DNA from: Candidatus Shapirobacteria bacterium | GTDB lineage: Bacteria; Patescibacteriota; Microgenomatia; UBA12405 | Direction: 5' to 3' | Length of the DNA: 49,291 nt | Assembly (NCBI GenBank): GCA_016188545.1 | Contig: JACPHO010000007.1 | Location: 1 to 49,291, forward strand | Made by a program: the position numbers and the translations under genes | Notes under the pieces: generated by a model | Told to the model about the DNA's origin: nothing | What the model saw: only the letters and a program-made list of their open reading frames with translations | Database searches by the model: none | In this document: one piece after another, positions 29,876-30,305 of the stretch | Numbering within the stretch: position 1 is the stretch's first letter | Layout: every line of letters begins with the position of its first letter

Positions 29876-29959
29876 TGCCGAAAGAGGGAATCGAACCCCC
29901 ATGACATTGCTGCCACACGATTTTGAGTCGTGCGCGTCTACCAATTCCGCCATTTCGGC
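29876..29959 (-). tRNA. tRNA-Leu (CAA)
   Basis: GCCGAAATGGCGGAATTGGTAGACGCGCACGACTCAAAATCGTG...GGGGGTTCGATTCCCTCTTTCGGCA; long variable arm. Confidence 0.96.
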
Positions 29960-30192
29960 AATAACTCGTCTATTATCTCACGTCCTGACCCGGATTTTAA
30001 GTATATTTCCAACTGTCTTGCTTCTTGACGACTGTCACAAATCTGGACATAGACCAGTGACGGTTTCTGGTCCTTTGTTGTTTGACACTTGCCAGCACCA
30101 CGTTGGTTCAACCTTCGGTTTAAATTATCCGTAAGTCCTTTGTAAAATGTTCCATTGCTGCACTTAAGTACATATACATAGTAAGTGTTCAT
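29938..30192 (-). CDS. GIY-YIG domain endonuclease-like protein
   Basis: MNTYYVYVLKCSNGTFYKGLTDNLNRRLNQRGAGKCQTTKDQKPSLVYVQICDSRQEARQLEIYLKSGSGREII; last codons lie in tRNA-Leu. Confidence 0.9.
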   Translation of the reverse strand: MNTYYVYVLKCSNGTFYKGLTDNLNRRLNQRGAGKCQTTKDQKPSLVYVQICDSRQEARQLEIYLKSGSGREIIDELLPKWRNW

Positions 30193-30264
30193 GTCGTGTG
30201 CGCGCCCACCACGGCGGGCAAGTCTACCAATGGAGTTTATCCGCCAAGGCGGACCATTTCGGCA
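30193..30264 (-). other. Decayed copy of the tRNA-Leu 5' half with two palindromic insertions
   Basis: GCCGAAATGG...CGGA...ATTGGTAGAC...GCGCAC(A)CGAC in tRNA order, interrupted by TCCGCCTTGGCGGA and GCCCGCCGTGGTGGGC. Confidence 0.8.
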
Positions 30265-30305
30265 AAGCAAGACAAGTATAGCAAAAATGTAGTGTAAAAT
30301 AGCTT

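Follow-up and report, generated by a model that had tools for sequence, protein, structure and literature searches.

Results

Anatomy of the tRNA-Leu locus

The window, i.e. the whole stretch of DNA analyzed here, comprises 49,291 nucleotides of contig JACPHO010000007.1 (assembly GCA_016188545.1) from Candidatus Shapirobacteria bacterium, a member of the Patescibacteriota. On its minus strand a promoter, a 5' fragment of tRNA-Leu, a GIY-YIG gene and an intact tRNA-Leu(CAA) follow one another in this order. The locus contains the following features:

30275..30283, minus strand: predicted tRNA-Leu promoter of the extended -10 type, TGCTATACT, which aligns with the empty site of a same-genus genome
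29960..30263, minus strand: 304 bp of extra DNA compared with the empty site of the same-genus genome G002
30254..30263, minus strand: 5' segment of tRNA-Leu native to the host, GCCGAAATGG, with the same bases as positions 1-10 of the intact tRNA
30240..30253, minus strand: boundary hairpin 1, TCCGCC-TT-GGCGGA, perfect, at the junction of native and element DNA
30222..30239, minus strand: tRNA-derived segment apparently borne by the element, TAAACTCC ATTGGTAGAC
30204..30219, minus strand: hairpin 2, GCCCGCC-GT-GGTGGGC, near-perfect, 3' of the D-loop GGTAGAC
30193..30203, minus strand: final tRNA-like remnant GCGCACACGAC, approximately tRNA positions 25-33, abutting the start codon
29938..30192, minus strand: minimal putative GIY-YIG endonuclease gene of 84 aa with a TAG stop codon in the tRNA D-loop
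29875..29959, minus strand: intact, apparently restored tRNA-Leu(CAA), called by ARAGORN and Rfam (3' end 29875/6)

A sequence-only reading of the window had placed an intact tRNA-Leu at 29959-29876, where ARAGORN and Rfam both call tRNA-Leu(CAA) (29959-29875/6), and a GIY-YIG gene starting with the ATG at 30192, which corresponds to an ORF at 30192-29938. The gene and the tRNA share 22 bp, the last of the former and the first of the latter, and the gene ends with the TAG of the tRNA D-loop (...TTGGTAG) as its stop codon, in agreement with the overlap of 22 bp that had been proposed. The upstream 5' half-tRNA, previously assigned to 30264-30193, is real in that a fragment aligning to the intact tRNA up to approximately tRNA position 33 exists; however, it starts at 30263 and is interrupted by two hairpins. 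Judging from its sequence, TGCTATACT likely functions as a promoter that would now drive the remnant, the GIY-YIG gene and the tRNA.

A same-genus empty site and tRNA-Leu(CAA) loci of the order

In genome G002 of the same genus (locus L135), the same extended -10 is followed directly by a single intact tRNA. The window is 304 bp longer than this empty site and its remnant begins exactly at the position where the orthologous tRNA of G002 starts. This upholds the earlier suggestion that tRNA-Leu was invaded by a GIY-YIG element of approximately 0.3 kb, which brought a new 5' part with it. tRNA-Leu(CAA) is located near dnaB in many relatives, and 28 loci of this tRNA in the order could be scored as their upstream sequence was available. 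The GIY-YIG gene is absent from 25 of them, so that element-free alleles occur at the same site, as is typical of homing genes. A 5' remnant is present at all three loci with the gene and at one of the 25 without it. Two additional loci, L047 and L088, carry GIY-YIG genes at tRNA-Leu(CAA) and belong to more distant genomes. L150 yielded a weak remnant match with two mismatches that lies inside the upstream coding sequence.

A half-tRNA lacking the nuclease gene had been named as an observation that would speak against the insertion. One instance was found: at L134 (G016), tRNA-Leu(CAA) has remnants on both sides and no GIY-YIG gene. These remnants bear hairpins, as they would after loss of the gene, and the locus has the look of a relic left by at least two insertions.

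Distribution across the order and the phylum

The genome of the window encodes seven small GIY-YIG genes and one of uvrC length. Five of the seven small genes adjoin a tRNA gene on the same strand, namely tRNA-Glu, -Cys, -Ala, -Ser and -Leu. On contig C8 of this genome (L007), a GIY-YIG gene without a tRNA within 1.5 kb is broken by an in-frame TGA and is a probable pseudogene. Within the order, 44 genomes yielded 125 small GIY-YIG genes, of which 70 lie within 200 bp of a same-strand tRNA and two within this distance of an opposite-strand tRNA. In a sample of loci from the phylum the corresponding numbers are 46 and 0 of 72 genes. Both samples are weighted to the best-scoring matches and these fractions are therefore estimates. 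A GIY-YIG match was obtained in 204 of the 286 phylum genomes searched.

Most tRNA types are affected, with elements located either upstream or downstream. Those upstream of a tRNA have a 5' remnant behind them, those downstream a 3' remnant. In the order, a 5' remnant of the same tRNA was found in 21 of 34 upstream-type cases (false-match rate 3.3%) and a 3' remnant of the same tRNA in 13 of 16 close downstream-type cases (0.3%); no remnant was detectable in the other 13 upstream-type cases. Same-tRNA remnants accompany 17 of 32 upstream-type genes in the phylum sample (1.2%). As a control for chance, 5' anchors taken from tRNAs of a different amino acid gave a match in 1-3% of trials. A survey of short GIY-YIG genes beside tRNAs had been suggested as a check on the window, and it returned both recurring tRNA fragments and an empty site. 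The arrangement can no longer be called unusual, as it had been, given dozens of such loci on both sides of most tRNA types throughout the phylum. Upstream-type genes mostly end close to the start of the tRNA, with the stop codon no more than approximately 25 bp to one side of it or the other, and in L095 the ATG of the gene overlaps the CCA end of a tRNA-Val. Some phylum loci come from single-contig assemblies, which argues against misassembly.

Several loci deviate from the common arrangement. In L072 (G016, 577-694), two tandem tRNA-Asn 5' remnants, each with its own hairpin, precede a single GIY-YIG gene, which suggests that insertion recurs at one site. In L003, L004, L094, L096, L099, L105, L108 and L126, the gene is located approximately 100-190 bp 3' of tRNA-Ser, -Asp or -Ala and a hairpin-rich spacer extends from the tRNA 3' end; in the class as a whole the distance is 65-190 bp, hairpins are present and a tRNA remnant is absent. 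This second architecture is possibly a related insertion type. L019 of G001 contains, between tRNA-Met and tRNA-Ile(TAT), a tRNA-like gene (oriented positions 449-524) whose anticodon stem-loop is a perfect palindrome and which ARAGORN calls tRNA-Stop(TTA), and the same palindromic arm recurs in the remnant 3' of the GIY-YIG gene. The tRNA-like gene with its suppressor-like anticodon is probably a relic.

Hairpins at the element edge

A perfect inverted repeat was detected in 28 of 34 remnants compared to 4.4 expected from shuffled sequences; a few of those counted in remnants of the downstream type are simply the tRNA's own T-arm. Read from the outside in, the host-identical tRNA prefix ends at the start of the hairpin in 34 of 36 upstream-type cases, with prefix lengths of 10-26 bases and once 33. 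Most downstream-type elements show the mirror arrangement of hairpin and host-identical segment. The mean folding z is -2.0 at the hairpin boundary versus -0.3 within the ORF. These junctions bear on two further points of the sequence-only reading. The old half was thought to have decayed passively, whereas the host-identical segment ends in the D-arm, where the apparently element-borne hairpin begins. Insertion had also been placed near the anticodon loop; since the hairpin sits where the host-identical tRNA ends, the D-arm is at least equally likely as the point of exchange.

Elements with the same target have similar hairpins in different hosts. Hairpin 1 of the window, together with the 18 nt after it, is similar to L104, a tRNA-Leu(TAA) element from a different genus, with TCCGCC..GGCGGATAAACT.CATTGGTA in common, and the Gln elements L055 and L243 from two orders have a long hairpin in common. 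The Glu elements L001 and L021 of two genera also agree in their hairpin, while their outer segments match the tRNA of the respective host (GGCCCC and GGCCCT). It would appear from these comparisons that the hairpin is carried along by the element and that the outer part of the tRNA is the host's own. The palindromes of L117 and L118 differ in ways that preserve inner pairing. In many cases, among them L072, L100 and L117/L118, the element side of the hairpin also contains sequence derived from the tRNA.

Palindromes also occur elsewhere in these genomes. A 20-bp palindrome, CCTGCCTGCCGGCAGGCAGG, is scattered almost unchanged across families of the order with 0-61 copies per genome, and TCCGCC..GGCGGA is likewise dispersed in the order. 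CCTGCCTGCCGGCAGGCAGG occurs just once in G037, and the tRNA-Leu remnant of L118 contains a copy. It is possible that CCTGCCTGCCGGCAGGCAGG hairpins reflect independent insertion at the same place. We rejected the idea that the boundary hairpins as a whole are random dispersed palindromes, as their coincidence with tRNA remnants is far above the density expectation and many of them differ in sequence at the same position. RNA folding of remnant, gene and tRNA, with and without hairpins, was discarded as a guide: almost every fold, including that of the clean-duplication control, had the remnant paired to the 3' end of the tRNA, probably due to the multiloop energy terms of the model.

Protein, phylogeny and selection

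The product of the window gene consists of a GIY-YIG domain alone and belongs to this superfamily by its match to PF01541 (E=5e-11, above cut-off). Tyr, Tyr, Arg, Glu and Lys are invariant among its relatives. The window copy has Arg in place of a nearly invariant His, which makes its own activity uncertain. The nearest solved structures by sequence are UPF0213 proteins (1zg2, 1ywl) and SLX1. In the predicted structure (pLDDT 82), UPF0213 is the only significant fold match and SLX1 comes next. Neither the sequence nor the predicted structure of the protein contains a recognizable separate DNA-binding domain. SLX1 acts together with SLX4. UPF0213 proteins stand alone, and to our knowledge neither their role nor a link of UPF0213 or SLX1 to tRNA genes has been described. 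Phage records contained no match to the window protein, and a search with it for related loci retrieved only a Prevotella protein without a tRNA within 1.5 kb.

The phylogeny of the GIY-YIG proteins follows the target tRNA rather than the host, and lineages are specific to a site across hosts as in homing genes. Along the tree the target isoacceptor changes 38 times (mean of 200 label shuffles 56.6, minimum 52) and the side, upstream or downstream, 13 times (shuffles never below 17), while host genome (59 versus 57 changes) and genus (52 versus 51) do not cluster beyond chance; the tree is short (86 columns) and single forks are weak, but the label test does not depend on any one fork. With dN/dS of approximately 0.07-0.3 in pairs with estimable dS, the nuclease gene is evidently under purifying selection.

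Discussion

Relation to known elements

Group I introns in bacterial tRNA genes target the anticodon arm, encode a homing endonuclease and insert nearly silently. At our locus silence would come through a repair copy and not through splicing, and between 29800 and 30350 there was no Rfam intron match up to E=5, with only the tRNA reaching its gathering score. Free-standing phage GIY-YIG endonucleases are closer in form. We know of no duplicated tRNA part at T4 SegB. Like the window gene, segB encodes a GIY-YIG protein, is free of an intron and lies among tRNA genes, and it promotes inheritance of a tRNA region, as the window gene would; it is given as cutting a tRNA intergenic region and is located between intact tRNAs (PMC2988022). 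LAGLIDADG homing endonucleases are encoded in CPR rRNA insertion sequences, which share with our elements structured-RNA targets, target-specific endonuclease clades and probably the bacterial radiation, but lie within rRNA genes rather than at tRNA genes; GIY-YIG is described as sparse and outside a homing context, and the text does not mention tRNA (PMC11270868).

The closest parallel are the mORFs in the fungal mitochondrial genes atp6, atp9, cox2 and nad3 (Allomyces, Glomus), where an endonuclease ORF inserts together with a replacement gene end and leaves the native end behind, and where the responsibility of the endonuclease for mobility is stated to have been demonstrated biochemically (PMC3630166). 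The window and many of its relatives likewise carry an inserted gene part that restores the target while the native part is left. However, mORFs reside in protein genes, bring a visibly foreign replacement and, in the described atp6 case, encode a LAGLIDADG enzyme (PMC3630166), whereas here a tRNA in bacteria is rebuilt from the 5' or the 3' side, the enzyme is an 84-aa GIY-YIG protein and a hairpin marks the junction. As both tRNA copies are nearly identical and the replacement part is not foreign, we describe the element as working like an mORF rather than as one.

A probable tRNA-restoring element and its alternatives

We consider it probable, on the strength of the sequence comparisons, that the window contains a tRNA-targeted element of approximately 0.3 kb that is mobile by homing-type recombination and restores the tRNA that it interrupts. 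Starting from what can be read off the DNA, namely the anatomy, the empty site, the target-specific lineages, the hairpins shared by same-target elements and the purifying selection on the gene, we infer DNA cleavage, repair-driven copying and a function of the hairpin as follows. The small nuclease, a UPF0213/SLX1-like catalytic domain only, would break an element-free tRNA gene in the region of the D-arm and anticodon arm. Repair from an element-bearing copy would then bring in the hairpin, the nuclease gene and a fresh version of the severed tRNA part, which would be the 5' part for upstream elements such as that of the window and the 3' part for downstream elements. The same kind of break repair is invoked for the fungal mORFs with replacement ends (PMC3630166). 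With the tRNA rebuilt, the insertion would be nearly silent, and the severed part of the host would remain outside the element, terminating at its hairpin. The hairpin would most likely prevent this leftover from serving as a tRNA or as a target. Several observations speak against this explanation. The restored tRNA is identical in sequence to the presumed target, and no resistance mutation was seen that would protect it from self-cleavage. The restored part is not visibly foreign either, since it hardly differs from the native segment (39/39 bases agree in L072). The lack of a recognizable DNA-binding domain, the Arg at the His position of the window copy, the 13 of 34 upstream-type cases with no detectable remnant and the class that has hairpins but no remnant also count against it.

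The main rival, which we judge unlikely, is a target-site duplication: an SLX1-like nuclease would nick the two strands 10-40 bp apart, the element would insert and gap filling would duplicate part of the host tRNA, with no repair segment from a donor. The match of duplicated parts to the host's own intact tRNA, exact for L001 and L021, fits this explanation, as do the structural proximity of the protein to SLX1, a nuclease of branched DNA, and hairpin ends reminiscent of elements that move via structured DNA. A plain duplication would not be expected to leave tRNA-derived sequence on the element side of the hairpin, though, nor would targets be expected to track the protein lineage so tightly, and a transposase is not encoded. 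The hairpin itself could also be working machinery, which would make these elements a new class of minimal mobile element. An SLX1-like structure-specific nuclease lacking a DNA-binding domain would then act on hairpins extruded from the tRNA gene and on the terminal hairpin of the element, the target would be set by tRNA shape and not by a long sequence, and the tRNA would be rebuilt during insertion; we regard this possibility as rather doubtful.

Alternatively, the location next to tRNAs might reflect function and not mobility, with the GIY-YIG protein acting on RNA as a tRNA-processing or tRNA-cleaving enzyme or as a toxin and the hairpinned fragment being its substrate or decoy. Likely co-transcription with the tRNA and the tRNA-specific lineages would agree with such a role. 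It is nevertheless very improbable in view of the patchy presence at only three of 28 scorable tRNA-Leu(CAA) loci, the clean empty site in the same genus, the precise junctions within tRNA genes and the similarity in sequence and fold to UPF0213 and the DNA nuclease SLX1. Still less probable is an integrase-type insertion in which the GIY-YIG gene is cargo or a leftover. tRNA genes are classic attachment sites and are regenerated by integration, but the extra 304 bp of the window hold one ORF and no integrase, none was seen in the 1-3-kb flanks of the loci, the regenerated side is 5' in some members and 3' in others, and it is the nuclease lineage that tracks the target. Least probable of all is neutral noise, i.e. 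a tandem tRNA duplication, decay of one copy and insertion of an unrelated GIY-YIG gene, which could draw on the dispersed palindromes and tRNA fragments of these genomes but conflicts with the tie between remnant and gene at tRNA-Leu(CAA), the hairpin at the junction and the similar hairpins at the same target in other genera.

Implications

For the tRNA-restoring element, we call the homing-type organization with a repair segment known, and the use of tRNA genes as targets, the insertion on either side and the hairpin edges new. In the literature on GIY-YIG and tRNA genes, CPR/Patescibacteria and UPF0213/YhbQ, with subscription papers and preprints outside its scope, we found no report of tRNA-targeted or tRNA-restoring GIY-YIG elements. 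The findings point to a widespread family of selfish elements, very small in size and apparently not described before, by which tRNA genes are disrupted and rebuilt, and to one route by which reduced genomes may tolerate parasites in essential genes. They provide a natural system in which to study how a nuclease spares a gene whose original sequence it has just restored, which role the hairpins of the element play and whether target specificity is possible for a bare GIY-YIG domain of approximately 84 aa. Such elements would also account for tRNA fragments annotated in this phylum and for its odd GIY-YIG proteins whose C-terminal end is translated tRNA.
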